Of a DNA stretch of 64,000 nt, positions 14,932 to 63,819 are shown piece by piece; the first letter of the stretch is position 1, and each line of letters opens with the position of its first letter. Under the pieces are notes generated by a model. The model saw only the letters and a list, made by a program, of their open reading frames with translations. It was not told the DNA's origin and made no database searches. The translations under genes were made by a program, and so were the position numbers. The DNA comes from Sphingobium sp. (GTDB lineage Bacteria > Pseudomonadota > Alphaproteobacteria > Sphingomonadales > Sphingomonadaceae). The DNA is taken from contig CP136575.1 of the NCBI GenBank assembly GCA_035196065.1, positions 711,001 to 775,000 on the forward strand. Reading direction: 5' to 3'.

Positions 14932-15017
14932 GGGGACGTATATGCGTCAATGACGCCTAAAAGGCAAGCGAAATTTGGCACATTCGATCTTTGCCAACAC
15001 ATAGAACCGATAAGAGG

Positions 15018-15050
15018 GGCGGTTCTACGCGAGGCAAACGAAGGATAAGG
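15018..15050 (+). repeat. Inverted, diverged copy of the ACGCAAACGA repeat family
   Basis: The stretch reading TTCTACGCGAGGCAAACGA then AGGATAAGG matches, in opposite orientation, the core of the 41-bp tandem repeat that follows. It matches in the same orientation the GGTTCTACGCGACGCAAACG repeats at 63816-63884, at the far side of the polysaccharide locus. Confidence 0.7.
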
Positions 15051-15058
15051 TGATGGGT

Positions 15059-15181
15059 GGACTTATCGGTCGTTTGCGTCGTGTTTTGGTCATGGACGTG
15101 GACTTATCGGTCGTCTGCGTCGTGTTTTGGTCATGGACGTGGACTTATCGGTCGTTTGCGTCGTGTTTTGGTCATGGACGT
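15059..15181. repeat. Three tandem copies of a 41-bp repeat
   Basis: Units 15059-15099, 15100-15140 and 15141-15181 are identical apart from one T/C change, each opening with GGACTTATCGGTCGTTTGCG and closing with GTCATGGACGT. A partial fourth copy (GTTATCGG) follows. No gene overlaps them. Their core is the reverse complement of the repeats near 63.8 kb. They look like iterons or protein-binding arrays rather than coding DNA. Confidence 0.85.
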
Positions 15182-15208
15182 GCAGTTATCGGGAGTTTGG
15201 GGGCATTT

Positions 15209-16318: not shown

Positions 16319-16497
16319 ACAAAATTTCTCATAAAATAGACTCAGGGTGTTGGCCCGCAACACGTCGACCACATACTGAAGCAGCATCCGATCAGCGACA
16401 AGCTGCATCTACTTCGGTATCGCCTCAGTCGCGCAAACCGTCCCGTGGAAAACTTGTCCTATAACGCTTCTACTCAGATGCGATCATCATCGCACTG

Positions 16498-16884
16498 CTA
16501 CTCCGTGGAACTAAGCCCGAAGTCATTCGGCCATCCTGCTATCATCAAATCTTGGTTTGTAAGTAGCCATCGATAAGGGTCAGCAATGCCGCCGGCCCGG
16601 GAGGGACGTTCGGGGTGACCAATTTCGGTGAGACGCATCACTTCCATTAGCTTGCGGGGTGTTCCGTCTGGCTTCAATGTTTCGAACGAAATTTGGCCGG
16701 TGCACTTGGCAATCTGGGAAGTGATCTTGGCCAGATCGATGATCGAGACATCTTCTCCGCAGCCGATATTGTTGCCGCTAAGCATGGGCAGTGTGACCGC
16801 ACGCGGATAGATGAAGGACAAGCCAAGGGCCAACAATTTGCGTATAGTCTTCCGGAATGCCTGATGGATGACATTGCATTCCAT
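16498..16884 (-). pseudogene. fcl: GDP-L-fucose synthase remnant with internal deletion
   Basis: The frame joins two separate parts of GDP-fucose synthase. NVIHQAFRKTIRKLLALG and FIYPRAVTLPM correspond to the region around residue 100 (NVIHAAYxxGVKKLLFLGSSCIYP). GEDVSIIDLAKI and KPDGTPRKLMEV...YRWLL correspond to the C-terminal third. The catalytic YxxxK core between them is missing, as is the N-terminal Rossmann fold; homologous codons (ENLI) continue just before the ATG but run into a TAA. No gmd partner is present. The cluster has therefore lost a GDP-fucose branch. Confidence 0.8.
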
Positions 16885-16948
16885 AATCAGGTTTTCTTAG
16901 TAGCAAGCAGAGCGTCGATGTGAGTTGATCTAGCACTCATTCGGCTTG

Positions 16949-18172
16949 TCAGGCGCAGTTATCGATAATTGCAAGCATGCGCCTAGCAAGAACTTTCCGA
17001 TCATAATGCTTAGCAGCCAATGGGCCGTTATGGGCCAGGCGCTTTCGTGTGTCCTGATCATCATGAAGCTGTTTTAGGCGTTCTGTTAATTCAACGTGAT
17101 TTTCAGGCTCGAACGTAAGGCCAATGTCGTGTTTGCGAACAATTTCGGCCGACTCGCCTTCGACCCCATGCAGGATAGGTATCGCCATTCCCATGCATTC
17201 AAACATCTTTGATGGAATGACTGTAGTGAACAGTTCGGAGCGCCTGAGGTGTATGATCGACGTATCCAGAATTGACCAGTAACGGGCCACTTGTTCCTTC
17301 GAGACGCTGTCCAAAAAGATAACGTTTCGAAGACGTTCAGTGCGTGCACGCGCCTCAAGTTTTTGACGGTGCGCCCCGTCGCCAAGCATCAATATTCGGA
17401 TCCGATCGCAATGTTCAGAGTTCGCCAGCAGGTGTGCCGCGTCAAGCAATGTATCCAGGCCATGAGCCAAGCCGTGCGTTCCAATATATCCCGCCACAAA
17501 AGCTTCTTGCAGGCCCAATTCCTCCAAAAGCTCTTGATCCTTAGGTATGGGTGAGAAACGTGAACCATCAACACCATTCGTCACGACATGGATCTTTGTG
17601 CCATCAATTCCACGGCCAATTAGGTTTTGCCGGAATGCATGGGTTACCGAGATGATTATGGTCGCCCTTCGGTATAGAAACAGCTCGACCTTTTCGAGGA
17701 GATCGAGGAACCGCTCCTTCTTCATCGCGCCAACGGCGCGGATGGACTCGGGCCAAATATCGCGTAGCTCAAATACCCAAGGCCGGCGCTTAGCGACGCT
17801 CACTGCATATGCCGCACATGCGGTAAAAAACTGTGGCGAAGTGCCTATAACTACATCGACCCGGCGTATGAATAATGAGGCAAGGAAGGCCATCACCATG
17901 AAACTGAGATAGTCTAATATGCGTTTGGCAAAACCCTCGTTTCGGGTGATGTAAGTCCAGACACGGATTACGCGGATGCCATCTATGTCCTCAGTCTGCC
18001 AAAGCCGGTTTTTATATCCTGCGAATACCTGGCCCTTCGGGAAATTCGGTGCGCAAGTGACGACGGTGACCTTCTGCCCTGCCTTTACCCATTCGCGGCA
18101 ATGCTCGAACGTGCGGCTCGCTGGCGCATTGACCTCCGGCGCGAAGTTGTCGGTCAGGAAGAGTATATGCAT
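16949..18172 (-). CDS. Family 4 glycosyltransferase, WbuB-like
   Basis: The 407-residue GT-B enzyme begins MHILFLTDNFAPEVNAPASR and contains PNFPKGQVFAGY, RPWVFELRDIWPESI and the nucleotide-sugar site ECMGMAIPILHGVEGES (about 315-331). This pattern is that of WbuB-type transferases, which often add N-acetylfucosamine or a related sugar in O-antigen assembly; the sugar is not predictable. It starts four bases after the stop of a heparinase remnant, the same order seen at 30.3 kb, where the heparinase is whole and the transferase is a fragment. Confidence 0.88.
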   Translation of the reverse strand: MHILFLTDNFAPEVNAPASRTFEHCREWVKAGQKVTVVTCAPNFPKGQVFAGYKNRLWQTEDIDGIRVIRVWTYITRNEGFAKRILDYLSFMVMAFLASLFIRRVDVVIGTSPQFFTACAAYAVSVAKRRPWVFELRDIWPESIRAVGAMKKERFLDLLEKVELFLYRRATIIISVTHAFRQNLIGRGIDGTKIHVVTNGVDGSRFSPIPKDQELLEELGLQEAFVAGYIGTHGLAHGLDTLLDAAHLLANSEHCDRIRILMLGDGAHRQKLEARARTERLRNVIFLDSVSKEQVARYWSILDTSIIHLRRSELFTTVIPSKMFECMGMAIPILHGVEGESAEIVRKHDIGLTFEPENHVELTERLKQLHDDQDTRKRLAHNGPLAAKHYDRKVLARRMLAIIDNCA

Positions 18173-18176
18173 ATGA

Positions 18177-18432
18177 TCAATTGCCTTCCACGTCCAGATT
18201 GGCGCGACCGGCCACCAAGGGGACTATGGGGCAGCGGTTGGGGATGCTTATACCAAATTTTGGGTGCAATGTTGTATCTTCTGCGCGCATGTCACCCCCT
18301 TCACTTTTTACACGCAAATTAAGACCACCGGGCAATGTGAGCAATGCTTCATTGGGGGGCATATCTTCAGCGAGATTTGCGGGTGTAAGTGAAACCGCGC
18401 TTCCGCTTGGATCCTCGAACTCAACAGATTGG
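18177..18432 (-). pseudogene. C-terminal remnant of a heparinase II/III-like protein
   Basis: The last ~84 codons before the stop read LPGGLNLRV...LHPKFGISIPNRCPIVPLVAGRANLDVEGN, matching the tail of the full heparinase-like protein at 30384 (VPGGQQLRL...WHPEFGVSIPNYCLVLPIHAGRASLSVESK). The homology stops exactly where the terminal inverted repeat of a dead IS3-type element begins (18433), so insertion and deletion removed the front of the gene. Confidence 0.8.
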
Positions 18433-18993
18433 TGACGTGACCCCCAGCTTTCCACCAACTGGAATTTGAGCCTGACTGCTTTTTGCACTGCTACCCAACC
18501 TTGGATCACTCATGCCCGGAGTTTTCCCCTTGCTCAGATCCGGTGGGCTGGTCTCACTAGCTGAGTTTGCCAGCATGATCGGGGGGATATTCCCGGTCGC
18601 GCTGTGCGGTCGCTCTTCATTGTAGTGTCTGCGCCAAGTCTCTAACTTTTCGCAAGTATCTTGCAGCGATAAGAACCAGCGCGCGTTAAGGCATTCGCTG
18701 CGCAGTTGGGGCCCCGTCGTCAACTGGTCATGAACAAAGTCCATCACCGACACATCGTTCGACCGGATCGCCGTCGTGCGATTCGCCCTGAGCTTCGCCT
18801 TGCCCCGCCGTTTGGGGGTCTTGTTGCGCAGCTGCAGGCCCAACTCCCTGAAAACCTTCTTCATGTTCACCTGCCAACCGTCCCGGCGCAAGAGATGGAA
18901 CATCCGCCGGTAGCCATAACGGACATGCGTCTCGCAGATCTCCTTGATGCGCTTCTTCAGAAAGGCCGGATCGGCAAGGCGGGTCTGGTAGTG
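18421..18993 (-). pseudogene. IS3-family transposase OrfB, internally deleted
   Basis: The N-terminal part (YQTRLADPAFLKKRIKEICE, YGYRRMFHLLRRDGW, NKTPKRRGKAKLRANRTTA) and the end (LNARWFLSLQDTCEKLETWR, YNEERPHSATGNIPP) are typical of IS3-type OrfB. The catalytic rve core with the first two acidic DDE residues is missing between VMDFVHDQLTTG and SECLNARWF. A TAG precedes the preserved part. The frame runs past the IS end into the neighbouring remnant. Confidence 0.8.
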
Positions 18994-19485
18994 CTAACTG
19001 GAAGTGTCGAACGGCAGAGCCTGGCAGGCCCTCCGGATCGGCACATCCCAGTCTGATAGCATCCCATAGGAACAGCTCGCGCTTCCGATCCGGCCTCAGG
19101 GCTTTCGGCGGATGACGTCCTGCAGCATCTCACGGTCCAGCCTCAGATCGGCGACGATTTTCTCCAGTCGTCCGTTCTTGTCTTCCAGATCTCGCAGGCG
19201 CCGCATCTCTGACGGCATCAGCCCCGCGCATCTCTTCTTCCGGTTGAAGTCGATCGCTTGGCTGATCCCTGCCTTGCGACAGATCTCAGCGACTAGCGGG
19301 CCTTCCTTCCCTTGCTTGATAACGAACGCCTTCTGTGTGTCCGTAAACTTCGATGCCTTCATGCCATAATTCCTCGTCCAGCCAGGGCTGTATAACGCGA
19401 AAAACTCTAACTGCGAATGGTCCAAAATTCAGGCGGCAGAGCACAGACGCTATGCAATACTCAAAGAAAATCAGGGGGTCATGTT
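18433..19485 (-). mobile_element. Degenerate IS3-family insertion sequence
   Basis: The ends are TGACGTGACCCCC (18433-18445) and GGGGGTCATGT (19475-19485), imperfect inverted repeats. Inside are a shortened orfB and a diverged orfA, both on the minus strand. The element truncates a heparinase gene at its left end and abuts the intact IS3 element directly at its right end. Confidence 0.75.
19096..19362 (-). pseudogene. IS3-family transposase OrfA, diverged
   Basis: An 88-codon frame reads MKASKFTDTQKAFVIKQG, VAEICRKAGIS and MRRLRDLEDKNGRLEKIVAD, the helix-turn-helix and leucine zipper of IS3 OrfA. Substitutions in the conserved helix (QAIDFNRKKRC where QATYFNWKKKY is usual) and the defective OrfB mark the element as dead. 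Confidence 0.75.
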
Positions 19486-19532
19486 GACGTGCTCCCCTGA
19501 AATGTGACCGCTTTTTGGTAGAGTCTGACGAT

Positions 19533-19799
19533 ATGAAGCGAAGCAGGTTCAACGAAGAGCAGATCATTGCGATCTTGAAGGAGCAGGAAGCTGGGATGGC
19601 GACGGCGGAGGTCTGCCGCCGTCACGGGATCAGCTCGGCGACATTCTACAAGTGGAAGTCGAAGTTTGGCGGTCTGGAGGTGTCTGAGGCCCGACGGTTG
19701 CGGTCGCTCGAGGAGGAGAACTCGCGGCTGAAGAAGCTGTTGGCCGAAGCGATGCTCGACAATGCCGTGTTGAAGGATCTGGCCTCAAAAAAATGGTAA
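19533..19799 (+). CDS. IS3-family transposase OrfA
   Basis: 88 residues: the helix-turn-helix of the transposase_8 family ([37 protein letters not shown]) and a leucine zipper ([20 protein letters not shown]). It binds the IS ends. The gene ends in TGGTAA after an A7 run (19787-19793), where a -1 frameshift would fuse it to OrfB. Confidence 0.93.
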
Positions 19800-20683
19800 C
19801 GCCCGGCGCCAAGCGGGAAGCCGTCGCCCATGCCCGGGAGCATCACGGGGTGAGCGAGCGTCGGGCGTGTGCACTGATTGGTGTGAGCCGCAGGGTGGTT
19901 CGGTATGAACCGAGCAGGCCAGATGACGGGGCGCTGCGGCAACGGCTGCGCGAGCTGGCGGCGGAACGTCGCCGGTTCGGCTGTCGCCGCCTGGGCTATC
20001 TGCTGGCGCGGGAAGGCATCGCACCCAACCACAAGAAGCTGCTGCGGATCTACCGCGAGGAAGGACTGCGCATGCGTCGCCGTGGCGGCCTGAAACGGGC
20101 GTTGGGCACGCGCAGACCGATGGTGCTGCCGGATGGCCCGAACCAGCGCTGGTCGCTCGACTTCGTCTCTGACAGCCTGATCTGCGGTCGGCGCTTCCGC
20201 ATCCTGTGCGTGGTCGATGACTACACGCGGGAGTGCCTGGCGCTGGTGGCCGATACGTCACTGTCAGGTGCTCGGGTGGCCCGCGAACTGACCAGCCTGA
20301 TGGGGAGTCGCGGCAAGCCGCACACGGTGGTCAGCGACAATGGGACTGAACTGACCTCGTCAGCCATCCTGCGCTGGTCGCAGGAGCGACGGGTCGAGTG
20401 GCATTACATCGCTCCGGGCAAGCCGATGCAGAACGGCTTCGTCGAGAGCTTCAACGGTCGCCTGCGGGACGAATGCCTCAACGAGATCTTGTTCACCTCG
20501 CTGGCTCATGCCCGGTTCGTGCTGGCCGCCTGGCGGCATGACTACAACACGGTGAGGCCGCACTCGAAACTGGGCGGGAAGACTCCCGCCGAGATCGCCG
20601 GCCAACGTGTCTGGGGGCATGCCCCCAGACACGTTGGCATCACATCAAACATCCATGATGAAGGAACGGGACTCTACCTCTGA
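19793..20683 (+). CDS. IS3-family transposase OrfB (DDE integrase)
   Basis: 296 residues: an HTH_21 segment ([34 protein letters not shown]) followed by the rve integrase core with the DDE triad, D in [10 protein letters not shown] in [10 protein letters not shown], and E in [36 protein letters not shown] ends the domain. The frame is -1 relative to OrfA across the slippery A run, so the active enzyme is probably an OrfAB fusion. It appears complete and potentially active. Confidence 0.93.
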
Positions 20684-20808
20684 CTGGTAACAAGTAGGGG
20701 AGCACGTCAGGTTGTTCAAGGATTTTGATGCGAGAAATTTCGCATTCTAACCGAACTAAAAGACGAATATGTAAATCAATCCAATTGGTAAATTAAATTT
20801 TAATGAAA

Positions 20809-22653
20809 TTACATGCTGAAATCGCGATCGTTCATTCGATGGTCGCACCAAAAAGCAAAGTAAATAAGCTGCCAAATTCTATATGTATTATTTCTTTTGC
20901 CTTTAAAATGTTCTATAATGATGCGCTCAACTGAATTTTTTTCAATAAAATTGTAGGTATTAAGGCTATCAAATATTTCCAGTGCTTTTGCCTGACCTAA
21001 ACTTTTGATCATGCCGTCCAATGGGGGATTGAAACCCCTTTTAGCTCGCCGAAAATGGTGCCCGACCCCTTCGTCATGTAAGAACTTTCTCAACGGCATT
21101 TTCCCATCTAGGCCGTGGATTAAATTTTGATCATCCAGACTGTTTGCAAAACGGCTGGCCGCCTCCGAGACGAACGGTACGCGTAGTTCGACACTTTGGG
21201 ACATGCTAGCCCGATCAGCCACAGTGAGATTGTGGGCCAAATAACCTGTTTGATCCAAAAAGAGTGCTCGGCGAAGTGAGGAACACGTATCAAATTGACT
21301 TAAGTGGCTATTAACTCTTTCATAAAAAAAGCGAATATCGTCGGATGTTCCGACCATCTCCGCAACTTCTGCTTCAGAGAAGTAGCCCACCAAGCTGGTA
21401 TAACCGCGTACGAAATCTCCTGAGCGAACAAACTCAAGAAAACGGTGAACTCGTTTATCTCCAGGACGGAAATATGTTGCTACTTTGGCGACCAATTCAC
21501 TGATAGGTTTAGTTCGACTGATGAGCGACCACTGCCGGGCTAAAGTGTACCTAGGGTAGCCGCCAAACATCTCATCGGCTCCCATGCCACTTAGCATCAC
21601 CTTAAACCCTGCCTCGCGTGCAATGCCCGCAAGGGAAGCAGTAGAAATATAAGTATAATCGGAAATAAGTTCTTCATTTCCGATGGCACATTGTTGAAAT
21701 GAAGCTAAAATAGTGTCTACACTATTGCCTGAATTTGGAAATTTGTAAGACTCCAGTTGTAATTTTTTTTCACGACAAAAAGCCTCAGCAACTGCCAAGT
21801 CAGCTTCGTAACCCTTTCCGTAATCTACAAAAAAGCATTTGATTCCCTCTGCCTTTGCGGCGAGTGCAATCACGCTCGAGTCTATTCCTCCGCTGTAGAA
21901 AATGCCAACCGGAACGTCAGCATTGGCCTCCAATTTAACCTGCGCCAGCACGTCAGACCAAGTCGGCTGCTTACTTTCATTTAAATGATAACGCCTGTAG
22001 ATGATTTTCCGCTCGGGAAGCCTAATCTCGATTGTCGAACCAGGCATCACCTTTGCGACGCCGAGCACACCGGTCCGAGGTTCGTAGAGAAAGCCGTTAA
22101 GAAAAAACTCGCTAAACGCACTTCGATCAGGCTGAAGCCGTCTTCCTAACGCAGCCTCGACCCCCCGAATTTCAGACGATAGGACGATTTGATCGTCATG
22201 TTCATAAATGTAAAGTGGCTTAATTCCGAATCTATCTCGCCCGGCTAGAATTTGGCCTTCTTGAACGTTAATGTAAACAAAAGCGAACATACCATTAACG
22301 CGAGATAAGAATTCTTGACCAAAGATCCTAATTCCTTCAAGCAAAACTTCTGTGTCAGAGTTTGTTTTGAATTTTGATCCATAATTAATCAAATCAATTT
22401 TTAATGATTTCCAGTTATATATTTCTCCATTGTAAATTAAAACGTGCGAACCGCATTTACTTATAAATGGCTGATTTGCGTGATGATTTAAATCTATTAT
22501 ACTAAGTCGCCTATGCAAAGCATCAATATACCATTCATTAATCTTGTTATGGTATACTCCTGTCGCATCTGGACCTCGATGCCAAATTTTTTTTGAAATC
22601 TGTGCGGAATGAAATTTCGGAAACTTACTGATTTGAACAACGAAACCGCACAT
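20809..22653 (-). CDS. Asparagine synthase (glutamine-hydrolysing)-like amidotransferase, cluster A
   Basis: The 614-residue protein has Cys2 at the mature N-terminus (MCGFVV), the glutaminase motifs RGPDATGVY, RRLSIIDL and LIYNGEIYNW, and a synthetase domain with the ATP pyrophosphatase loop FYSGGIDSSVIA and SGMGADEMFGGYPRY. Such AsnB homologues in O-antigen clusters often amidate sugar carboxyl groups (uronamides), which fits the wecC-type dehydrogenase here, but free asparagine synthesis is possible. It is strongly AT-rich compared with the flanking regions. A GC-rich paralogue lies at 50751. Confidence 0.88.
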   Translation of the reverse strand: MCGFVVQISKFPKFHSAQISKKIWHRGPDATGVYHNKINEWYIDALHRRLSIIDLNHHANQPFISKCGSHVLIYNGEIYNWKSLKIDLINYGSKFKTNSDTEVLLEGIRIFGQEFLSRVNGMFAFVYINVQEGQILAGRDRFGIKPLYIYEHDDQIVLSSEIRGVEAALGRRLQPDRSAFSEFFLNGFLYEPRTGVLGVAKVMPGSTIEIRLPERKIIYRRYHLNESKQPTWSDVLAQVKLEANADVPVGIFYSGGIDSSVIALAAKAEGIKCFFVDYGKGYEADLAVAEAFCREKKLQLESYKFPNSGNSVDTILASFQQCAIGNEELISDYTYISTASLAGIAREAGFKVMLSGMGADEMFGGYPRYTLARQWSLISRTKPISELVAKVATYFRPGDKRVHRFLEFVRSGDFVRGYTSLVGYFSEAEVAEMVGTSDDIRFFYERVNSHLSQFDTCSSLRRALFLDQTGYLAHNLTVADRASMSQSVELRVPFVSEAASRFANSLDDQNLIHGLDGKMPLRKFLHDEGVGHHFRRAKRGFNPPLDGMIKSLGQAKALEIFDSLNTYNFIEKNSVERIIIEHFKGKRNNTYRIWQLIYFAFWCDHRMNDRDFSM

Positions 22654-22738
22654 ATTTTTGTCAACTCCAGAGTAATGTTGTTAAGTGAGTAAATTCACTG
22701 TTCTATTCTGTAATATCGGTGAGAATTAGTACGGATAA

Positions 22739-23794
22739 TCAATAGTAATTTGGCGAAGCCGAGAGGTTTCTGCAAAGGCGCAAAAATACACGAGCCCACA
22801 CATGACCGTCGAACCGGTTTGCAGTCGCCACGCAATCTTTGGCCAACGCTTCAGGTTCATCAATCAAAGCCTGCCGGAGCAACCCAATTGATTCGGTTAA
22901 AGATGAAGCAGAGCCCGGGTCCGAAAGCATCCAACAGCGTACATTTAAAAGTTCCGGTATAGCTCTCCAGCGGGTTGAAATTACCGGCACTCCAACGCTG
23001 AGCGCTTCGATGATCACGCCGGGGTACCCCTCTCCACGATAGAAAGTTGGCAGAAGCAGTGCGTCAAAGTTGCTGATTGTCTTAGTTACCTGACTACTAT
23101 CCAGCAACCCACTATACTTCACGTTAGGCGGCAGTTCACGAGGGAGTTCACATTCGAGCGGTCCGAATATAACAAGAGACGCTGTCTTTCCAAGAGATGC
23201 AACGGCTTCGATGGCCTGAAACACTCCTTTAGTCTCTGTTACGCGACCGATGTATACCAAATTAAGACTACATCTATTGAGGCGTGGCCTCAGGTTAGCA
23301 GCATCGCCCTCTGAGAACGCTACCCGCGTGTTGGGGTACCATACGCACCGTCTGACCCCCCTCTGCTCGAAGAACCTTTTTAGCGAGCGTGTCTCTACTA
23401 ACAGTAGGGGGCAGAGACGAACTAGTTGCAAACATACACGCCCCTTTATCGCGCCGTCAGAAAACCATATATCTGAGTCCCCGCCAAATAAACGAAGCAG
23501 CCAAGGGGTTTTGTAGAATACCCCCATCATCAAAAGTAGAGGCAACAAAACAAGAGCACCACGCGGTGATAGATGTACAGTCACAACGTCGTTTCTACGA
23601 AACGCGTTAGCAATATGCACGCAGTCGCGAAATAGATTTCTAACAACTTGAAACGGCCCGCCACTACCTCCCGCTAACTCCACCCGGTCGATATTTAAAC
23701 CGGGGAAGGATCTGAGAATCTCTTCCAACTGCTTCAATAAAAGCGTTGTACCGCCCTCGGGCGGCGGAAACGATCCGATGATACCTATGTGCAC
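22739..23794 (-). CDS. Family 4 glycosyltransferase
   Basis: A 351-residue GT-B protein: HIGIIGSFPPPEGGTTLLLKQL start, LNLVYIGRVTETKGVFQAIEA donor domain opening, and YRGEGYPGVIIEALSVGVPVIST, the E-x7-E nucleotide-sugar motif of GT4. The substrate is unknown. It is the last gene of a tightly packed minus-strand run of six genes (28475 down to 22739), separated by 16 bp from the acetyltransferase. Confidence 0.85.
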   Translation of the reverse strand: MHIGIIGSFPPPEGGTTLLLKQLEEILRSFPGLNIDRVELAGGSGGPFQVVRNLFRDCVHIANAFRRNDVVTVHLSPRGALVLLPLLLMMGVFYKTPWLLRLFGGDSDIWFSDGAIKGRVCLQLVRLCPLLLVETRSLKRFFEQRGVRRCVWYPNTRVAFSEGDAANLRPRLNRCSLNLVYIGRVTETKGVFQAIEAVASLGKTASLVIFGPLECELPRELPPNVKYSGLLDSSQVTKTISNFDALLLPTFYRGEGYPGVIIEALSVGVPVISTRWRAIPELLNVRCWMLSDPGSASSLTESIGLLRQALIDEPEALAKDCVATANRFDGHVWARVFLRLCRNLSASPNYY

Positions 23795-23810
23795 GTTGAT
23801 GGCCTAATGT

Positions 23811-24263
23811 TTAATCAATATGAAGGTAATGAAAATAGTCCACTCCGGCGCGCTTGATTTTTGCCGGGGCGCCAGCGACCATCGTCCCGCTCGGAACATC
23901 ATCAAGTACAACCGAGTTTGCGCCAATAACTGAATTCGACCCAATGATAATCGGACCTAGCACAACGGCACCTGCGCCGATATAGACGTTGGACCCGATC
24001 TTCGGAACACCTGTAATCGTTGCCTTGCCTCCTATAGTTACGTTTTGATCAATGTGAACGTTATCGCCGATTTCCGTGTCACCGTGAATGACTATACCCA
24101 AGCCACCATATCCCAAAACCAAACCAGTTCCATGCTTCACGCTGCTCGGAAACCAACAGCAAAAAATCAGTCGGATCGAATAATCAAAAAAAAGCGACAA
24201 TTTGGTCGCCTTTCGAGCCAGAAACCATGCTCCTAAGCAATGGAGAAGCATGATTATTTTCAC
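23811..24263 (-). CDS. Hexapeptide-repeat acyltransferase (serine acetyltransferase-like)
   Basis: The 150-residue protein has a short hydrophobic N-terminus and then a left-handed beta-helix of hexapeptide repeats (GDTEIGDNVHIDQNVTIGG; GSNVYIGAGAVVLGPIIIGS; IGANSVVLDDVPSGTMVAG). The layout matches the CysE-like end domain used in polysaccharide O- or N-acetylation. It overlaps the upstream glycosyltransferase gene by four bases. The acceptor sugar is unknown. Confidence 0.85.
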   Translation of the reverse strand: MKIIMLLHCLGAWFLARKATKLSLFFDYSIRLIFCCWFPSSVKHGTGLVLGYGGLGIVIHGDTEIGDNVHIDQNVTIGGKATITGVPKIGSNVYIGAGAVVLGPIIIGSNSVIGANSVVLDDVPSGTMVAGAPAKIKRAGVDYFHYLHID

Positions 24264-25480
24264 GATAAATCTCCCGAGTGAGGAATAACTTTCAAAGTTT
24301 TAAGTCCGAATGTTCCAATATAATCATCAACATATCGACTTCGATCAAAGTATTTTTCTGCCAATTTTCTAGCCTGAACTTTGCTATTATCCTTTTTCGC
24401 TATTCTGCAAAAACGATGCAATGCATCATAATCTCTGCCAATTTCCGTAAGAGGATAGCCGGCAAGATGGTTTTCAGAAAAAACCATGCTTAGGTCGCCA
24501 ACGCAAGGACTGAATATCACGGGGAGGCCACAAGCAAGATATTCCCCAACTTTAATTGGGCTCGCTGCACGATTTAGCTCAACGTCATGGCGAAGTACTA
24601 CTGAAACGTCTGCTGCCGACAAAAATGCGGGGACCTTCGCGAAATCGGCGCTAACAACCTTGACCTTAACCTCGTCGATACCTGAGTCCTTTAACTTTGA
24701 CGATACAATGTCTAAGTCACGAGATATTATGAGAAATCTAAAATTTTCATCTTTTTCAGATAACTTAACGAACAGGTTGATAGTATCATCAATCCGCTGC
24801 CAATGCGCCAGTCCTCCTGAGTAACAAACTACGATATGCTCATCTCTAAATTCAAATTTCTTTCGCAAGAATGTTCTGTCGGCTACAGAAAAATGGAACA
24901 TATCGAGATCAGGACATGAAGGAACAACCGCTATGTCGCTGCGCCTACTGCGTAATCTAATGAAACGTTCAAGATATAATGAAACCGTCAACAATTTATC
25001 TGTTCGTCGTAAACTGAAATCTTCAAATAAAACTAGCAACTGTGATTTAAATTTATTTCCTTTGACTTCGGCACTGACGATCGATCTTACATCGAAAACA
25101 ATAGTCGCGCCTAGTGGGCGGAATATTATTATTGCAGCGAAAGCGGAGAAAACAGATCGCACATATACGTGTGTGGCGTCGATTGAGCTAATGAATTCAC
25201 GAGCCCGTAGGGCGCCCCATAAGCAACGGATAACCATTCCTATCGCACCCATGTGTCGCAGTATGGGCTTCATGAGCAATATTTTATCGCCTCTAGCTTG
25301 GCAATCTTGCGCGTTGTTTAGGCCGGCGTTGGCTGAGCAACCGACGATTGCAGTTGTGGCGCCCAATGCATCAAGCGTCTCCGATAACGACACTATCTGC
25401 GATTGAACGACCGGATGCCGTAAATCTAGCCACTCCGGTATGAAAAAAGCGACGGTTGTCCTTTCAAGCGGACTGTACAT
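24260..25480 (-). CDS. Glycosyltransferase, GT-B fold (GT4-like)
   Basis: The 406-residue protein has a GT-B arrangement. The N-terminal domain has VAFFIPEWLDLRHPVVQSQI and IVFDVRSIVSAE. The C-terminal domain has HIVVCYSGGLAHWQRIDDTI, the strand SAADVSVVLRHD, and ASPIKVGEYLACGLPVIFSP in place of the standard E-x7-E loop. The sugar is unknown. It overlaps both neighbours (17 bp with the polymerase gene, 4 bp with the acetyltransferase), so it is certainly part of the same transcript. Confidence 0.8.
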   Translation of the reverse strand: MYSPLERTTVAFFIPEWLDLRHPVVQSQIVSLSETLDALGATTAIVGCSANAGLNNAQDCQARGDKILLMKPILRHMGAIGMVIRCLWGALRAREFISSIDATHVYVRSVFSAFAAIIIFRPLGATIVFDVRSIVSAEVKGNKFKSQLLVLFEDFSLRRTDKLLTVSLYLERFIRLRSRRSDIAVVPSCPDLDMFHFSVADRTFLRKKFEFRDEHIVVCYSGGLAHWQRIDDTINLFVKLSEKDENFRFLIISRDLDIVSSKLKDSGIDEVKVKVVSADFAKVPAFLSAADVSVVLRHDVELNRAASPIKVGEYLACGLPVIFSPCVGDLSMVFSENHLAGYPLTEIGRDYDALHRFCRIAKKDNSKVQARKLAEKYFDRSRYVDDYIGTFGLKTLKVIPHSGDLS

Positions 25481-26900
25481 GCGATCTTTCCTGTTGTTGA
25501 GATAACAATTGCGTCTGATTTGCGTGTATCAACAATAGTACTAATGCAAACCATAAGAACTTCACGTCATGTATTGTGATTGTTGCTGCAATTAGAAGCG
25601 TTGATACAAATCCCAATGATAGATCCAAGAGGAAACCTCGTTCGCTGGAAACACTCGAGCGGACAGCCACATGGAGGGCTCTTTGAATTGTGAATAAAGG
25701 CACAGCAAGCCACAGAATAAGGCCAACAATGCCAGTTTCAGCAAGAATTTGGATATATGTGTTGTGTGCAGCCCATCCAACATGAACGAAGTATGAGGTC
25801 AAACCGTTTCCAAAAAACGGGGCGTTGCTCCACTCGTCCACCGCAAGGCCCCATAAGTTATAACGCTCGCCAGTAGTGCCGGACGTGTCGTTTAGCATGC
25901 TCGCCAATCGTTCTTGAAATGGGGGATAAAGAGAATAAGTTATCAGCGCTCCAATCGCCGCCACAACGCTGAAGCCGCCAAAAACCTTGCCACCCCTAGC
26001 AGCATGGTAAAATAATAGTGCAGTTGCCGCCAACATTCCCGACCGACTATATGAGCCGGCAATTTGAACGATGATCGCTGCGGAGCAAAGGAGCCATCCT
26101 AATCTCCGTTCAGGTTGCGACCTCGCGAGTGCGAGTGCAATAGCCAACCCGATTGTCAAAAGCGCACTAGCATAATTTGGCTCGTCACCTGGCCAAATGA
26201 GACGCGGCACAAGGCTGCCCGCTGAAAAAATGGCGACCCGTTGTTCGATTGCTACATCGCTAGCAGTTACCGCGTCTGCCATCAGTCCGTACAGAAAGGT
26301 GTCAGGGCCGAGCGTGACATGTGTGAATTTAACGAAAAGGGCGCTGCCAGCAGCCATCGCCCAGACCTCCATTAATGTCTTGGCGGTGCCTGATCGCGCA
26401 ACAAGCACCGTTCCCGCCAGGCAAAGCAAAACAGCCTGCCAATAAAATGTAACATATTTAAAAAAATATGTTGAATCTTCGAGCCAGAAAAAAGTTAAAA
26501 GCGCATATAATGAAAATAAAATTGCTGAAATTACGGATGGATATCGGAAGTTTTTTATGAAATTTAATTTTGTTATCTCAATAAATATTCTCGGCAATAA
26601 AGCCGCGGCCGCCCATGAAAAAGCTCCACCAGGTATGAGTAGTGATGCGCTCGGTGAATGCATTATAATTATTAAAAGAGCAATTCCTGCTTTCGCACTT
26701 AAATAATTAATATAAAAAACTATGGAAATAAATATGTATATTATTGTATTTGGTAATTGAGTTATTGAAGATATGAATATTAATATCCATGCAGAAATCA
26801 GAAAATACGTTTCTCTCCATTTCCATGGCGCACTTTTTTGACTAAAATACAAGATTTTTTCTTTATTATCAGGAGATTTTACGTACTGTTTATTGAGCAT
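25464..26900 (-). CDS. wzy: O-antigen polymerase/ligase family membrane protein (Wzy), cluster A
   Basis: The 478-residue protein has about 11-12 membrane helices and the Wzy_C periplasmic loop signature (FGNGLTSYFVHVGWAAHNTY then IQILAETGIVGLILWLAVP). In a Wzx/Wzy pathway it joins repeat units on undecaprenyl carrier in the periplasm. The first ~120 residues are extremely AT-rich. It lies between two glycosyltransferase genes and overlaps both. A WaaL-type ligase cannot be excluded from sequence, but cluster context favours Wzy. Confidence 0.8.
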   Translation of the reverse strand: MLNKQYVKSPDNKEKILYFSQKSAPWKWRETYFLISAWILIFISSITQLPNTIIYIFISIVFYINYLSAKAGIALLIIIMHSPSASLLIPGGAFSWAAAALLPRIFIEITKLNFIKNFRYPSVISAILFSLYALLTFFWLEDSTYFFKYVTFYWQAVLLCLAGTVLVARSGTAKTLMEVWAMAAGSALFVKFTHVTLGPDTFLYGLMADAVTASDVAIEQRVAIFSAGSLVPRLIWPGDEPNYASALLTIGLAIALALARSQPERRLGWLLCSAAIIVQIAGSYSRSGMLAATALLFYHAARGGKVFGGFSVVAAIGALITYSLYPPFQERLASMLNDTSGTTGERYNLWGLAVDEWSNAPFFGNGLTSYFVHVGWAAHNTYIQILAETGIVGLILWLAVPLFTIQRALHVAVRSSVSSERGFLLDLSLGFVSTLLIAATITIHDVKFLWFALVLLLIHANQTQLLSQQQERSHVQSA

Positions 26901-27885
26901 AGCAGGCCAAGATGCGTTTTGCGACCGTTTGCCATATCAAGCTCTGATTGCAGCCGTATCGTTCCATCGTACACGCTGAGATCGCATAAGCTAGAGCTCT
27001 CCAGTTGTTTGGGGGGAAGCGTCCAGCGAGACCAGCCTGACAACTTGGATGTACGGGCACTGTTTCGGACACTAGAACGGGAAGGCCCGCTGCATTGGCT
27101 TCCAGTAGGACTAATGGCATAACCTCGCGAAAACTCGGTAACAACATCAAAGATGCTGCTGCATAGGCTGAGTATAGGAGCTCGTCATCATGGCCGACGT
27201 ATCCCAAGAATGTGACCCTATCACCACCTTCCGTTCTGCAGCGTTCGTAATAAGCCATGTGCTCTGGGTGCGGCCTACCAATGAGTACCAAATCCCGACC
27301 AGATTCTTTACAAGCCTGAATAGATGCAAGTTGATTTTTATTCGGCTCGATGGATCCAACCTGCAAAATGAACTTTTCTTTTTTATATCGCTCACGAAAG
27401 AAATCAGGACTCGCCTTAAGAAAATTTTCCGACACACCATTAGGGATTATAGTGGTTGAACATGGGTTTACGTCGAAAAATTCGATTAGGGAATGCTGCT
27501 CTTGCTCAGTGAGGCATATTATTTTGTCAGCTAAGGACAAGAGATATGCCGACGCAGAAATATTTTTGTAAAAACCAGGAACGAAAGAGCTAAGCTTTAC
27601 CTTTGCGCCGAAGAATTTGTCGGTTTGAGAGGTTATATTGAACACTGGAGATACAATCACCTGCACTCCATTGCGAGCGTAGTGCCGTGCATATGCCAAA
27701 CCGCTCGGGTCTAAGGAAAATACATGACAAGTATCCAAATTACGTGGATCATAGTAATGCCAAGGGTTATAAAAATTGACGTTCACACCAAGGGACGTGA
27801 GGGCTGAGGCAGTTTCCCGGATTTGAATATGAAGTCCACCTTCATTCAGCCCGACATGCGGATATGTTACAAAGAGAATGTTCAT
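26890..27885 (-). CDS. Family 4 glycosyltransferase
   Basis: A 331-residue GT-B protein: MNILFVTYPHVGLNEGGLHI start, IIPNGVSENFLKASPDF, EKFILQVGSIEPNKNQLASI, and LPSFREVMPLVLLEANAAGL as the nucleotide-sugar E-x7-E motif. The substrate is unknown. It overlaps the acyltransferase before it (ATGA) and the polymerase after it. Confidence 0.85.
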   Translation of the reverse strand: MNILFVTYPHVGLNEGGLHIQIRETASALTSLGVNVNFYNPWHYYDPRNLDTCHVFSLDPSGLAYARHYARNGVQVIVSPVFNITSQTDKFFGAKVKLSSFVPGFYKNISASAYLLSLADKIICLTEQEQHSLIEFFDVNPCSTTIIPNGVSENFLKASPDFFRERYKKEKFILQVGSIEPNKNQLASIQACKESGRDLVLIGRPHPEHMAYYERCRTEGGDRVTFLGYVGHDDELLYSAYAAASLMLLPSFREVMPLVLLEANAAGLPVLVSETVPVHPSCQAGLAGRFPPNNWRALAYAISACTMERYGCNQSLIWQTVAKRILACYAQ

Positions 27886-28475
27886 TTTATCGTTTGCTTA
27901 TCTATATTCACGCACCGCGTGCGTACCAGCCTACCAGGGTTACCTACAAAGATCGCATTTTTTGGTACATCTTTGGTAACAACAGTACCAGCGCCAATTA
28001 TCGCTCCAGTTCCTACACGCACCCCTGATAGGATTATTACTCCAGCACCAATCCAAACATTATCTTCAATGTATATTTTTTTATAATCCCCCATGCCTTG
28101 TTGGTTCATAGGTTTATTAATGTCTATGAAGATATGATCTCTACCGTAGATAATAACACGCGGTCCCATCATAACGTCGCACCCTATTTCTATTTCTGCT
28201 CTGATCCAAGCATCGACGCCGATTCCGCTCCTACTTCCAATTGAAATTCCATCGCCAAAACCGAAGTCTGCACCTTTCTCAACATTGACGTCGGCGCCAC
28301 AAGAACGGAAGAGGCGCTTGGCGGCCGCGAAGCGAAGTTGGCGAGCCACGCCTCCTCCTGGATAGCCACTGATCGGTAGACGCTTAGCCAGTGAGTAATA
28401 AAATAAAAATGCAAACCACTTGGTTCCCTTTACGACCAATTTCTTCGATTTTCTTAATAAAAGTGACATGCTCAT
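27882..28475 (-). CDS. Hexapeptide acyltransferase (maltose/galactoside O-acetyltransferase type)
   Basis: 197 residues, with hexapeptide coils GISIGSRSGIGVDAWIRAEI, IEIGCDVMMGPRVIIYGRDH (catalytic histidine), YIEDNVWIGAGVIILSGVRV and IIGAGTVVTKDVPKNAIFVG. This is the WcaF/LacA-like family that O-acetylates sugars using acetyl-CoA. It is probably the first intact gene after the broken flippase in cluster A. Confidence 0.85.
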   Translation of the reverse strand: MSMSLLLRKSKKLVVKGTKWFAFLFYYSLAKRLPISGYPGGGVARQLRFAAAKRLFRSCGADVNVEKGADFGFGDGISIGSRSGIGVDAWIRAEIEIGCDVMMGPRVIIYGRDHIFIDINKPMNQQGMGDYKKIYIEDNVWIGAGVIILSGVRVGTGAIIGAGTVVTKDVPKNAIFVGNPGRLVRTRCVNIDKQTIK

Positions 28476-28665
28476 AATTGTTGAATCTTTTTAGAATTTA
28501 TTGGCCAAATCCGGTATTCACTGAGGGTATGAGTTTCAGTTTTGTTGAGTTCTGATCGAGCTTGATTGGCGTTGATGTTTGATATTGGGGGTGCCTGTCT
28601 ATTCGGGCGCCGCCTTTTAGGTGTTGCCACAGCTTAAAGCAGTATTCTGTCATCAAAACCATATA

Positions 28666-30106
28666 TTATCGACGCACCAGGCTTCGTAAAGTTGTGGCGA
28701 ATGCCAGTACTATACAAACGGTCAAAACGCTTAAAACTACGATCCTAAAAGACAGCGCGGGCGCCCAAATGGTCATTGCGAAACAAAGTGTGAAGAGGAC
28801 GCCACACGCAGAAATGCCTAAGATCATTGGATTTTTCATGTCAACCTCCATGTAGAGCTTTAATGCCGTCCCAGAAAGGCCGGCTCCCAGAATGGCTGTC
28901 GCCAGCATTGCTGCTGCTGCGCCTTTGGCACCTAAGCAAGGAACAAGGAAATATGCTCCAGCAATCATTACAAAAATTTGCGCTGCAGCAAAATATAGCA
29001 CTATCCTACCGTGCCCCCGGGCAATCAATGCGGTGGCCATAAGTAGGTTCGCTCCTGAGGGCACGAGCCATATAGACAACAGCCAGGATACATCCGTTGA
29101 ACCATCTAACTTCCCAGCGTACAATAATATATTTATCTCGGGGCCAAGAATTATGAGACTGGAAGAGATCAGAAATGACATGGTTAGAAGAGAGTAATAT
29201 GCAATTTTGAATGACCTAATATCGAAATCTTCTTCAACAAATTTCCTTTGCAGTATTGGCCTAATGGGATCTAATATTCTCAATGAAACGGATGGTATTT
29301 GTAACGCGAGATTAAATATAGCAAGATGAGAAACATTTCCACCAAATGAAAGAAGGGATACATCTACAATTTTCATCTGCATTAAAGATAGAAGAGAGGT
29401 TGCATAAATGCTAGCATAACGAATAAATATCCGTTTTAAATTTTTTATACCATCGATAAAGAAAAATGCAGTAATATTTATTTTATATGAAAAATAAATA
29501 ATTCCAAATCCCAGTAATTCTACTTATGGGCCATGATAAACAAATAAGTTCTAGCTTATAATTACTAAAAAGTGCCAAAATTGATAAAATTAACCGTTGA
29601 ATTTCGGCGTTCATTAAAATTTTTGCGGAGTCGGCAGCTTTTCCATCTGCGATTTTGATGATGGTACCATTTTGAAATAGGATATTTAAAGCTATACAAG
29701 GTATGGACAATAGGAAAGCGTTGCGCGTGGGAGTAGCCATGCTCTGCGAAAAAAATCCGATTAGCAAAACGATACCCATGATCGCTACAAGTGCCTGAGC
29801 AACTCCTTGCCCGAGATAATAGGTTTGGAGTTGCCCGCTCTCAGGCGGATACACATGCGGCGCTTCTTGGATGATAGATGAGCGAAGTCCGCAGTCTACC
29901 AAAACAGAAACTATCTGAGTTATAAGCAAAACTTGAAAGTAGGTTCCGAGCTCTTCAAGAGACAAGAACCGCGCGGCACAAAATATTATTATAGTTGATA
30001 TTAAAACATTTACGACAGCAGATGTCGCATTGCTTAAATATTTATTTGCAACAATTTTTCGTAAATTTATCAAGATAGATGCAGACCATTCAATAAAAGA
30101 TGGCAA
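28666..30106 (-). pseudogene. wzx: Wzx-type flippase broken by a frameshift
   Basis: Two frames make one polysaccharide flippase. The front half (30106 to 29483) has ANKYLSNATSAVVNVLISTI and CAARFLSLEELGTYFQVLLI. The rear half (28666 to ~29500) includes FNLALQIPSVSLRILDPIRP and LSIWLVPSGANLLMATALIA. Between them the second frame stays open through GFGIIYFSYKINIT...FIRYASIYATSL, so removing one base from the CCC at 29510-29512 restores a single protein of about 480 residues with 12 helices. Cluster B has an intact Wzx (49418), which may substitute. A sequencing error is the other explanation. Confidence 0.8.
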
Positions 30107-30216
30107 TAATTCGACAAAATTGAATTTTATTTGTATTAAATTTCGTTGTGTCTAGAATGTAGGGTATGAATTTTATAAAATCAAAAATTTGTTCGACTAG
30201 CGAATTGAGTTCGCGT

Positions 30217-30378
30217 TCAAGTGTAGTGCGAGTGAGTTACTCGTTCTTCGTGCAGCACAAAGCGAGGTTCAACTAGTTTAATTCGGTTTTCTGATTCCAA
30301 AATCATGCCGATACAGTGCTGAACAAGTTTCACAACCGCATCGCCTTTGGCGCCGTGTAGGATAAGGATCGCCATGCA
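30217..30378 (-). pseudogene. Remnant of a second WbuB-like glycosyltransferase
   Basis: Directly after the heparinase gene a 53-codon frame reads CMAILILHGAKGDAVVKLV, QHCIGMILESENRIKLVE, then LHEE. It aligns with ECMGMAIPILHGVEGESAEIV, HDIGLTFEPENHVELTE, LHDD of the intact transferase at 16949. About 310 N-terminal residues are missing and the end has drifted. Gene order (heparinase, then transferase) is the same as at 16.9-18.4 kb. Confidence 0.75.
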
Positions 30379-30383
30379 TGCGA

Positions 30384-32012
30384 TTATTTACTTTCTACGC
30401 TCAGGCTAGCGCGACCGGCATGTATGGGAAGGACGAGGCAGTAATTTGGGATGCTGACGCCGAATTCTGGATGCCACGTTGAGCCTTCAAGACGAAGCGG
30501 CTCACTGCAGCTTAGCAGTCGCAGTTGCTGCCCGCCGGGTACCTCGAGCAAAACGCAATCCTCAGTTATCGAAGTAACAATGACCGAGGGGTGCAAATGG
30601 AACCGGGCCTCACACTGTGCCTTCGAACTGATAGTATCTATGATGAGCAAGCGGGACTTTTTCAGTTCGAAATGACGAGTGACAAGTGGTCGTCCCGGCA
30701 GGTGCCGGTATCCGTTATGTGCCGCTTGCGCAAACTGAGCCCCGCTCCCGTCTACACCGACGGTGACTGCTAGCGGTTTGGCGCGTCGGCCAACTCGAAA
30801 CCCAGACCACACTTCAGACGAATTGTGTCCTTCTATGATTACCGTGTTATGAGCTGCTGTTCCCCGCTGTCGGAGTCGTTCTGGTCCGGTACCGTATTCG
30901 GATATACCCGAATTCACAAAGATGCGGTGTCCGGCCCAAGACAGTTCGAAACTCAGTGTATCGGCATGGGCATGACCGGGGAGATAGTCGGGTCCAATCT
31001 GCGCAAGATCGGCCAGTAGGGTAAATTTGCCGACTTCCATTCTGACGTACCCGCTGCTTTCCAGATGCGTCAGCGCGGGCACAATCTCTTTTGTCTTTAT
31101 ATCAAGACGGCGAGCGTAGCCTGAGAGTTCTGTATTGCTGGGGGCGATGCCGAACGCTGTATCATTGAAAAAGGCGAGGTAGCCGTCGGGATGGCTCATC
31201 ACCTGCAGCCATCGCAGCATCAATGGAACGTGCGTAAGCCAACTTGTTACGAGATCTTTTCGCCCGAAAGCTTTAGCTATGTTGATGAGGTCAAGCATAT
31301 CTTCGAGGGCTAAGGCGTGATACATTGGACTTAGCTCAAATTGTCCGCCATCTGGCCCTATTTGTTCGGAGATCTCGCGCTTCAGGACGTTCAGGCCGCA
31401 CTCGAGCCAACTTTGCGCTTCTTTTCCTGAGAAATATAAGCCTGCGAAGATGAGTGCTTTAGCGTTGGAGAAGAGGTGATTGCCGAGAAGGTGCCATTCC
31501 AGCCTGCGAGCCAACCAGCGGGTTTGAACGGCAAGACTGGCGATTGCTTCTTCAGGCAAGGCGTTGCCGGCTAACGCCCATTTGATCCAGTTCACGATCC
31601 GCAGTGATGTCGGATATGGTTCCCATCCGGAGCCTTGGCCGGGCAAGTTCGCACTGATCCACTTGCGCATTAGCACTTTGTGCCAACCAAGTCGCTCTTC
31701 GGATGCCTCGGCATTCAAGTCGTCGAAATAGTGCTGATTGTAGCGCCATAGCTTGGCCTTTGCCGGATTGTCCCACCCCAGCTCGGCAAGACTGCCCGCT
31801 TCATTAAGGAACCAGAAACATTGCGGTGCTATAAGGCTGGGTGCGCGTCGGGCTGGAACCTGCCAACTCCCGCACTGCTTCCGCAATTTCGGCGCTGTTG
31901 AAAGGTCTGGCTGCGGTCGAGCCAGCCAGAACAACGGTCGCCCATAAATCTGCACAGGACGTAGATGCCTCACCGTGCGCCATAGACGGGCCGCGTCGCG
32001 CAGTCGTTTCAT
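30384..32012 (-). CDS. Heparinase II/III family protein
   Basis: The 542-residue protein has an N-terminal alpha/alpha-toroid (LFWLARP, FWFLNEAGSLAELGWDNPAK, WHLLGNHLFSNAKALIFAGL) and a C-terminal beta-sheet Hepar_II_III domain with LADLAQIGPDYLPGHAHADTLSFELSW-like residues (catalytic-type His-Ala-His-Ala-Asp) and GTAAHNTVIIEGHNSSEVW. Members in surface polysaccharide clusters are thought to act as lyases or to help processing or export; the exact role is not established. It overlaps the methyltransferase gene upstream by four bases and is followed by a transferase remnant. Confidence 0.82.
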   Translation of the reverse strand: MKRLRDAARLWRTVRHLRPVQIYGRPLFWLARPQPDLSTAPKLRKQCGSWQVPARRAPSLIAPQCFWFLNEAGSLAELGWDNPAKAKLWRYNQHYFDDLNAEASEERLGWHKVLMRKWISANLPGQGSGWEPYPTSLRIVNWIKWALAGNALPEEAIASLAVQTRWLARRLEWHLLGNHLFSNAKALIFAGLYFSGKEAQSWLECGLNVLKREISEQIGPDGGQFELSPMYHALALEDMLDLINIAKAFGRKDLVTSWLTHVPLMLRWLQVMSHPDGYLAFFNDTAFGIAPSNTELSGYARRLDIKTKEIVPALTHLESSGYVRMEVGKFTLLADLAQIGPDYLPGHAHADTLSFELSWAGHRIFVNSGISEYGTGPERLRQRGTAAHNTVIIEGHNSSEVWSGFRVGRRAKPLAVTVGVDGSGAQFAQAAHNGYRHLPGRPLVTRHFELKKSRLLIIDTISSKAQCEARFHLHPSVIVTSITEDCVLLEVPGGQQLRLLSCSEPLRLEGSTWHPEFGVSIPNYCLVLPIHAGRASLSVESK

Positions 32013-32737
32013 GGGGTTTCGGAAGTAGGCTTCTGAAGATCCGCAATCAGCAGGATACGGAATTGGGCCAGTCCAGAAAAGCAGTTGACTAGGCGCTCGT
32101 AAGCTATGCCGAAAAGATAGCTCATTGCGGTGATCCGCAAATACTCCGGTCGACTTTCGATTAATTCCACCCTTCGAACAACAAATCCGCTACGATTAGC
32201 CAATTCCTGCACATCGTGCGGCGTGTTTGCTCTATATACGGTCGGAAAGGTGTCGACTTCGTCCCGTCCACGTAGTCGGTTAATGAACTGGTGGAAGCGG
32301 TGAGGCGTCATCCTTGCGATCAGTGGCATATAGTGCCAGCGGTTTGGGGTTTTGAAAAGCAGACGGCCGCCGGGCTTGAGGACGCGCGCGGCTTCTTTCA
32401 AGACCAGTTCCGGCTGCTCGAGATGTTCGAACACATTGTCAGAAAAGATTAGGTCGAAGCTGTTATCAGGATAGGGAATGGAATTAGCATCGCAAACCTG
32501 TCCCTCGTCGAGATAAGGATTATCGATCACTCTAGGGTCGAGGTCGATCCCGCAGATGCGTCTGGCTTTACCGCGGAAGTTCATGACAGCAATAATGCCT
32601 GCCCCGGCGCCGAGATCGAGAACGTTGTCATTGGCCCTTAGGACGGCATGGATACGTTCCGCAAATATTTGGTCATCCCAATTACCGTTCACGGCCGGAT
32701 AAAAATGGCTGTCCATTCTGGCGATCATTTTACTCAT
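32009..32737 (-). CDS. Class I SAM-dependent methyltransferase
   Basis: 242 residues: SAM site NVLDLGAGAGIIAVMN (~38-53), DLDPRVIDNP, SFDLIFSDNVFEHLEQPELV and RVLKPGGRLLFKTPN are the Methyltransf_11 motifs. The product could methylate a sugar or the glycan end. It precedes and overlaps the heparinase gene and follows wecC after a 160-bp gap, in which a GCGGTAGC element lies on the transcribed strand. Confidence 0.85.
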   Translation of the reverse strand: MSKMIARMDSHFYPAVNGNWDDQIFAERIHAVLRANDNVLDLGAGAGIIAVMNFRGKARRICGIDLDPRVIDNPYLDEGQVCDANSIPYPDNSFDLIFSDNVFEHLEQPELVLKEAARVLKPGGRLLFKTPNRWHYMPLIARMTPHRFHQFINRLRGRDEVDTFPTVYRANTPHDVQELANRSGFVVRRVELIESRPEYLRITAMSYLFGIAYERLVNCFSGLAQFRILLIADLQKPTSETP

Positions 32738-60521: not shown

Positions 60522-60579
60522 GTGACTGAGAAAGCTATCTCGCCTTAGCTTACCGCAAATAGCCGGTCTGCCGCAGCGG

Positions 60580-63815: not shown

Positions 63816-63819
63816 GGTT

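Follow-up and report, generated by a model that had tools for sequence, protein, structure and literature searches.

Why does one bacterial polysaccharide cluster hold two broken gene pairs of the same kind, each having kept the member that the other has lost? The question is raised by a 64,000-nucleotide stretch of the Sphingobium sp. genome (assembly GCA_035196065.1, contig CP136575.1, positions 711001 to 775000), referred to here as the window and numbered from its first letter; the genome itself is a single 3.02-Mb contig, 100% complete. Twice in this window, a gene for a heparinase II/III-like protein is followed by one for a glycosyltransferase (GT) of the GT4 type. In pair A, the heparinase gene (hepA) is intact and the transferase gene (GT A) is a remnant; in pair B, the heparinase gene (hepB) is the remnant and GT B is intact. 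The answer that we judge probable, without being sure of it, is that these are the remains of two related heparinase-transferase pairs, long diverged, which were joined about 12 kb apart and then underwent complementary loss. The four pieces, in the same order within each pair and on the same strand, lie where a sequence-only reading of this DNA had put them:

16949 to 18172, minus strand: GT B, intact WbuB/WcaI-like GT4 glycosyltransferase, 407 amino acids (aa), with Pfam GT4 domains above cutoff
~18177 to 18434, minus strand: hepB remnant, C-terminal part (about residues 457 to 542) of a second heparinase, in two frames with one frameshift
30229 to 30378, minus strand: GT A remnant, residues ~327 to 377 (C-terminal) of a second WbuB/WcaI-like GT4 transferase, by similarity, profile and frame tests
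30384 to 32012, minus strand: hepA, intact heparinase II/III-like protein, 542 aa, with N- and C-terminal Hepar_II_III domains

Two survivors, two remnants and their kinship

Both survivors look like working genes of their families. The product of hepA belongs to the heparinase II/III-like family (PF07940, 174.6 bits; PF16889, 75.3 bits; cutoffs of 24 and 22, respectively) and falls far below the NCBIfam equivalog for HepC heparin-sulfate lyase (58.6 bits versus a cutoff of 700). Of the 84 columns with at least 95% conservation among 66 relatives, it keeps 82, and it aligns with solved heparinase III structures across the GNH and QFEL-P-YH stretches; the tyrosine-histidine pair is presumably catalytic. 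GT B scores above the cutoffs for PF13579/PF13439 in its N-terminal half and PF00534/PF13692 in its C-terminal half, which makes it a GT4 transferase; as a WcaI-type enzyme it falls short (PRK10307, 152.8 bits versus 276; wcaI, 57.3 versus 800.45). The activity of WbuB is L-FucNAc transfer, and a homologue of GT B with 51% identity is annotated as WbuB in CP016036.1. GT B retains 113 of the 114 columns conserved in at least 95% of 65 relatives, and it is whole although the genes on both sides of it, hepB and a GDP-fucose synthase of which only a tail is left (16498 to 16884), are broken, which suggests that GT B may still be needed. A promoter scan of positions 16400 to 20900 returned one site, inside GT B, versus 2.5 expected, and is uninformative on GT B expression. 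As to the synthase tail downstream of GT B, it is a C-terminal GDP-L-fucose synthase remnant scoring 91.7 bits over model positions 233 to 306 of 308.

The hepB remnant, which has lost some 456 heparinase codons and stops 4 nucleotides ahead of the GT B start codon, is 44% identical to hepA across 68 aa (E = 3e-17). Residues 457 to 477 are encoded in a different frame; comparison of this region with the proteins of 65 pairs of other genomes gave 85 heparinase matches, of which 83 are spread over two frames of one strand, and a frameshift therefore lies within the remnant. Against a profile built without the window's own rows, it scores 19.6 bits, the best of 1,000 dinucleotide shuffles of the region reaching 5.9. 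The other remnant, GT A, lies directly downstream of hepA and is 40% identical to residues 326 to 377 of GT B (E = 2.4e-4, whole genome). The same external proteins gave 43 transferase matches here, all in one frame and covering residues 322 to 384, and the profile score, obtained in the same way, is 16.1 bits (best of 1,000 shuffles, 5.3). Nor was the kinship of this fragment with WbuB-type transferases, as the sequence-only reading had it, refuted by DNA alignment, which gave a local score of 140 versus a mean of 105.6 and a maximum of 129 in 500 shuffles.

The damage to GT A is of another kind than that to hepB. Its start codon is kept: the first six bases, ATGCAT, are those of GT B, and the gap from the heparinase stop codon is the same 4 nucleotides. 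This start is fused, out of frame, to about codon 327 (GT B numbering), with approximately 975 bp gone in between. In GT B, ATGCAT recurs at nucleotides 532 and 974, the latter near the inner break point of GT A, making a deletion by slippage between such short repeats possible. At its far end, the remnant meets a 122-bp stretch with a G+C content of 29%, at the edge of a low-G+C cassette that separates the two pairs. By eye, a candidate continuation past residue 377 can be seen in another frame.

The remnants are most similar to the intact copies in their own cluster: with the window's own rows included, the best match of the hepB remnant among 77 heparinases is hepA, and that of the GT A remnant among 100 transferases is GT B. 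In trees of concatenated sequences (hepA plus the GT A remnant as pair A, the hepB remnant plus GT B as pair B), the two pairs were sisters each time, with an SH-like approximate likelihood ratio test (SH-aLRT) support of 84 in a 68-row tree made with a quick method, 94/86 with 25 rows, and 96/86 in a 24-row tree in which the hepB row was longer. In controls, with other pairs masked down to these columns, the quick method joined none of eight unlike pairs and all three split halves of a single pair. What has to be explained, then, is the presence of four pieces of shown kinship, with two kinds of damage and with survivors that keep their conserved residues.

How the pairs probably met and decayed

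The scenario that we favor starts from two pairs of one small alphaproteobacterial lineage, which would have stayed functional over a long period of divergence, in all likelihood in different clusters. They would then have been brought within about 12 kb of each other, probably by horizontal transfer, on either side of a low-G+C, serotype-type cassette, and the resulting redundancy would have led to the loss of one member of each pair. hepB was presumably cut by an IS3-type insertion with an adjoining deletion, in addition to its frameshift, and GT A would have lost its ~975 bp, from the start codon to codon 327, and come to run into the cassette edge. The survivors, hepA (still behind wecB, wecC and a methyltransferase gene) and GT B, would probably act jointly, making or trimming one polymer with a uronic-acid-type sugar. 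The complementarity as such would need no special cause, because random loss of one copy per gene type is expected to leave survivors from opposite pairs half the time.

At the hepB break, two insertion sequence (IS) elements lie end to end:

18435 to 19484, minus strand: degenerate IS3-type element, with imperfect inverted repeats (18435 to 18451 and 19468 to 19484, 82% complementary) and HTH_Tnp_1 and rve_3 fragments
19485 to 20709, plus strand: IS3-family element, 1,225 bp, with 14-nucleotide perfect terminal inverted repeats (NF033516, 225.7 bits versus 160)

The hepB remnant begins exactly at the inverted repeat that ends the degenerate element. Directly adjoining this is the complete-looking element, assigned to the IS3 family by its transposase reading frames and its terminal inverted repeats, and because a comparison of its flanks showed no direct repeat 2 to 8 bases long, one of these was probably deleted or exchanged after insertion. 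Such an arrangement would also suit a different history, in which the two pairs were never both intact here and one splice, illegitimate or helped by an IS element, linked a piece starting inside hepB to a cluster whose end was formed by hepA and an already damaged GT A. We regard this as a possible history, and the most serious competitor, if a less probable one. The start of the hepB remnant at an IS end, the missing target duplication, which makes exchange or deletion of one flank probable, and the end of the GT A remnant just where the G+C content drops to 29% at the cassette edge all speak for it, and the incoming piece could indeed have lacked part of hepB already. A simple splice at the cassette edge, however, leaves the internal deletion beside the GT A start codon unexplained, and neither IS element has another full copy in the genome with which recombination could take place today. 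The degenerate element has just partial matches elsewhere, and the only other sizeable match to the complete one is 67% identical across 878 bp; IS-mediated exchange with other genomic copies is accordingly unsupported.

A recent duplication of one pair inside the cluster, followed by fast decay of one member per copy, would account for the sister placement of the two pairs, and the sequence-only reading did speak of a duplicated pair. We consider a recent event of this kind quite improbable, because the copies are so different at the DNA level, with 101 of 180 positions identical in the in-frame heparinase tail and 91 of 150 in the transferase remnant (~56 to 61%), rather than showing the high identity of a recent tandem or segmental duplication. 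Among fourfold-degenerate sites with the same residue in a 72-codon heparinase comparison (about 11 of these codons being out of frame), 9 of 18 differ. By codon position (first, second, third), the differences number 25, 17 and 37 in 60 in-frame heparinase codons (P = 0.02) and 17, 19 and 33 in 51 transferase codons (P = 0.04; 0.03 and 0.10 for shorter parts). This third-position excess, modest as it is, tells against recent duplication with fast decay and is as expected if much of the divergence arose under coding constraint, before decay set in. With copies so unlike, and with the patchy distribution of the pair in the genus described below, two related lineages brought together by transfer would seem to fit better than a duplication in place.

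Finally, chance resemblance or an assembly error can hardly be entertained: the shortness of the transferase remnant and a profile score (16.4 bits in this comparison) close to that of a remote GT4 homologue in the window (16.2 bits) could be cited in favor, but none of the 1,000 shuffles reached the profile score of either remnant, which refutes chance, the matches keep a consistent frame, the remnant sits directly behind the heparinase gene with the usual 4-nucleotide spacing, and the genome is a single contig and 100% complete.

Several observations nevertheless weigh against the history that we prefer, that of two long-diverged pairs joined and then reciprocally pruned. In the trees, the masked controls are of limited power, as L085 and L201, which are neighbors at 86/78 in the 24-row tree, stayed apart when masked. 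The approximately unbiased (AU) test did not reject the joining of either pair to that of Oceanicola (L065; P = 0.098 with 24 rows, 0.109 to 0.111 with 25 rows) or of pair A to that of genome G313 (P = 0.153, 25 rows). Where the transferase remnant aligns best, the third-position excess drops to a P value of 0.10. No strain turned up in which this cluster has either pair whole, which leaves joining and loss unordered. As for the survivors, one of the two departures of hepA from its conserved columns is V444, in place of a histidine found in at least 95% of relatives. Moreover, the cassette's wzx-like gene is in two pieces, in different frames (29483 to 30106 and 28666 to 29382), with a family match in the first part only; it is either a pseudogene or the product of a sequencing error, and because of it the cluster may be nonworking, unless a second wzx-like gene (49418 to 50719) serves. 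Of what the sequence-only reading proposed, then, two related pairs with complementary loss stand, given the best matches of the two remnants and the three trees, and the idea that both were once intact side by side in this cluster does not follow from them. Likewise, a set drawn from two sources agrees with the intact appearance of both survivors (82/84 and 113/114 columns), and its description as functional should be softened to presumably functional in view of the split wzx-like gene.

The surrounding cluster and the pair in other genomes

The window contains a surface-polysaccharide region with genes for a Wzz-type chain-length protein, a sugar transferase, Wzy-type ligases or polymerases, flippase-like proteins, nucleotide-sugar enzymes and several glycosyltransferases. 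Read along the minus strand, the part of interest runs wecB, wecC, methyltransferase gene, hepA, GT A remnant, low-G+C cassette, IS3 element (itself on the plus strand), IS3 remnant, hepB remnant and GT B, the two half pairs being about 12 kb apart. Its remaining features are as follows:

20809 to 30106, minus strand: low-G+C (44%) cassette between the pairs, delimited by G+C content and Pfam matches
32009 to 32737, minus strand: methyltransferase gene, its stop codon overlapping the hepA start
32902 to 35337, minus strand: wecC and wecB (UDP-ManNAc dehydrogenase and UDP-GlcNAc 2-epimerase), NCBIfam equivalogs above cutoff

The cassette holds an asnB-like gene, a GT gene, a hexapeptide-repeat transferase gene, a second GT gene, a wzy-like gene, a third GT gene, another hexapeptide-repeat transferase gene and the split wzx-like gene. 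Its G+C content of 44% compares with 51 to 55% in hepA, GT B, the hepB remnant and the methyltransferase-wecBC stretch and with 47% in the GT A remnant. Relatives of wecB are found in Novosphingobium (76%) and an uncultured Erythrobacter (68%).

Elsewhere in the region, a second Wzz/tyrosine-kinase-like gene (57158 to 58968, minus strand) is in two overlapping frames and shares a 134-nucleotide inverted match (78%) with an intact copy (40971 to 43175, plus strand); it appears to be another polysaccharide gene that was duplicated and then decayed. The polysaccharide region is bordered by a 43-nucleotide repeat, whose copies are 84 to 91% alike and in the same orientation, once at the left edge (15007 to 15049) and twice at the right edge (63802 to 63879), with 48.8 kb between; its core pattern, with up to three mismatches allowed, has only these three matches in the whole 3.02-Mb genome. 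Together with a tyrosine recombinase gene (59691 to 60695), these repeats give the impression of marking the two ends of a genomic island of 49 kb. Three recombinase genes at the right edge were considered as well; that reading was rejected because only one of the three frames there encodes a tyrosine recombinase. Beside the left repeat, positions 15057 to 15199 hold tandem copies at a 41-nucleotide spacing, whose unit contains, by eye, the core of the 43-nucleotide repeat in inverted and imperfect form, and near the right edge an ADP-ribosylarginine hydrolase-like gene lies in two frames (60580 to 62011) with a tyrosine-phosphatase-like domain ahead of it.

In other genomes, the two genes are usually neighbors. 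Among the best 80 of the 160 loci found in the genome collection, the heparinase gene lies directly upstream of the transferase gene in 64 and directly downstream in 6; 3 loci end at a contig edge, and 7 are nonadjacent by our rule, two of which (L111 and L144) do have a heparinase gene farther upstream or in pieces. In one genome (G143), heparinase and transferase genes are 20 kb apart, and no remnant was found. Within the genus, the pair is patchily distributed: only 1 of the 43 other genomes, G031, has a heparinase match with an E value below 1e-100. Although this made it the sole candidate for a same-genus donor, its one intact pair falls elsewhere in the 68-row tree, and we dismissed it. 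A third heparinase in the Sphingobium sp. genome (contig positions 790988 to 792007) was likewise set aside, having just 26% identity and similarly weak matches in 42 of the 43 other genomes. With positions 28400 to 32737 as the DNA query, the plasmid collection returned a single record, covering 8% of the query at 67% identity. That one cell could hold two pairs is plausible, because two intact pairs, each on a contig of its own (L072 and L102), occur in a Mesorhizobium sp. bin (bin 2), with the proviso that a bin can mix organisms.

Transferase stubs occur in four other loci, comprising residues 298 to 404 (G113), 308 to 404 (G146), 331 to 405 (L086) and 1 to 33 (G313). In G146 (L148:9910-10200), the 97-residue stub leads straight into wecB-wecC, and another frame just upstream resembles, by eye, a repeat-type surface protein.

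Known mosaic clusters and what the half pairs mean

Gene remnants at the joins of polysaccharide clusters have precedents. According to excerpts of one account of the galactose-initiated O-antigen clusters of Salmonella (PMC3715488), these contain wzy remnants, and group D2 is a recombinant of groups D1 and E; remnants there stem from serial deletions, insertion sequences lie at such sites, an H-repeat remnant marks a recombination junction, and one polymerase gene was lost after another had been gained. The locus studied here resembles those clusters, as excerpted, in its gene remnants, in the IS elements at a join and in being probably recombinant. It differs from them, again as far as those excerpts go (PMC3715488), in that the redundant unit is a two-gene set with reciprocal losses, and in offering no strain series by which to order the events. 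Damaged homologues stand at joins of segments of unlike composition, and the case is thus a further example of the known mosaic polysaccharide cluster with gene remnants, the product of ordinary cluster shuffling with a tidy reciprocal loss.

For the pair itself, the literature searched gave no published account of a heparinase-WbuB-type combination in polysaccharide or O-antigen clusters. The same families (heparinase/alginate-lyase family and WbuB type), in the same order and on the same strand, are found on the Sulfitobacter indolifex plasmid pDSM14862_a, in Oceanicola granulosus (L065) and on enterobacterial plasmids; those loci have an intact adjacent pair, whereas the window has two half pairs. 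The nearest parallel is a locus in a genome of the same taxonomic class (L188 of genome G313), where an intact heparinase gene, its product 56 to 57% identical to that of hepA, is followed by a transferase remnant and, as in the window, another transferase of the same kind lies about 9 kb farther on. In that locus, however, it is the first 33 residues that are left, rather than residues from the C terminus, the second transferase has no heparinase remnant that could be found beside it, and a long run of G's beside the stub makes the assembly doubtful.

On account of the transferase stubs in these four other loci, we speculate, at rather long odds, that the heparinase-transferase pair might serve repeatedly as a hinge when surface-polysaccharide clusters exchange cassettes, its partners often being swapped and terminal stubs left behind. 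If so, heparinase-transferase sets of mixed origin could give rise to new glycan types. Independently of this, the two damaged halves, with their differing damage, give a clear picture of the merging of polysaccharide clusters and of the loss of redundant genes, and such remnants can be used as markers to recognize joins elsewhere. Each survivor must now work with a partner from the other copy, and whether the transferase works with a heparinase that was not originally its own is a testable question.

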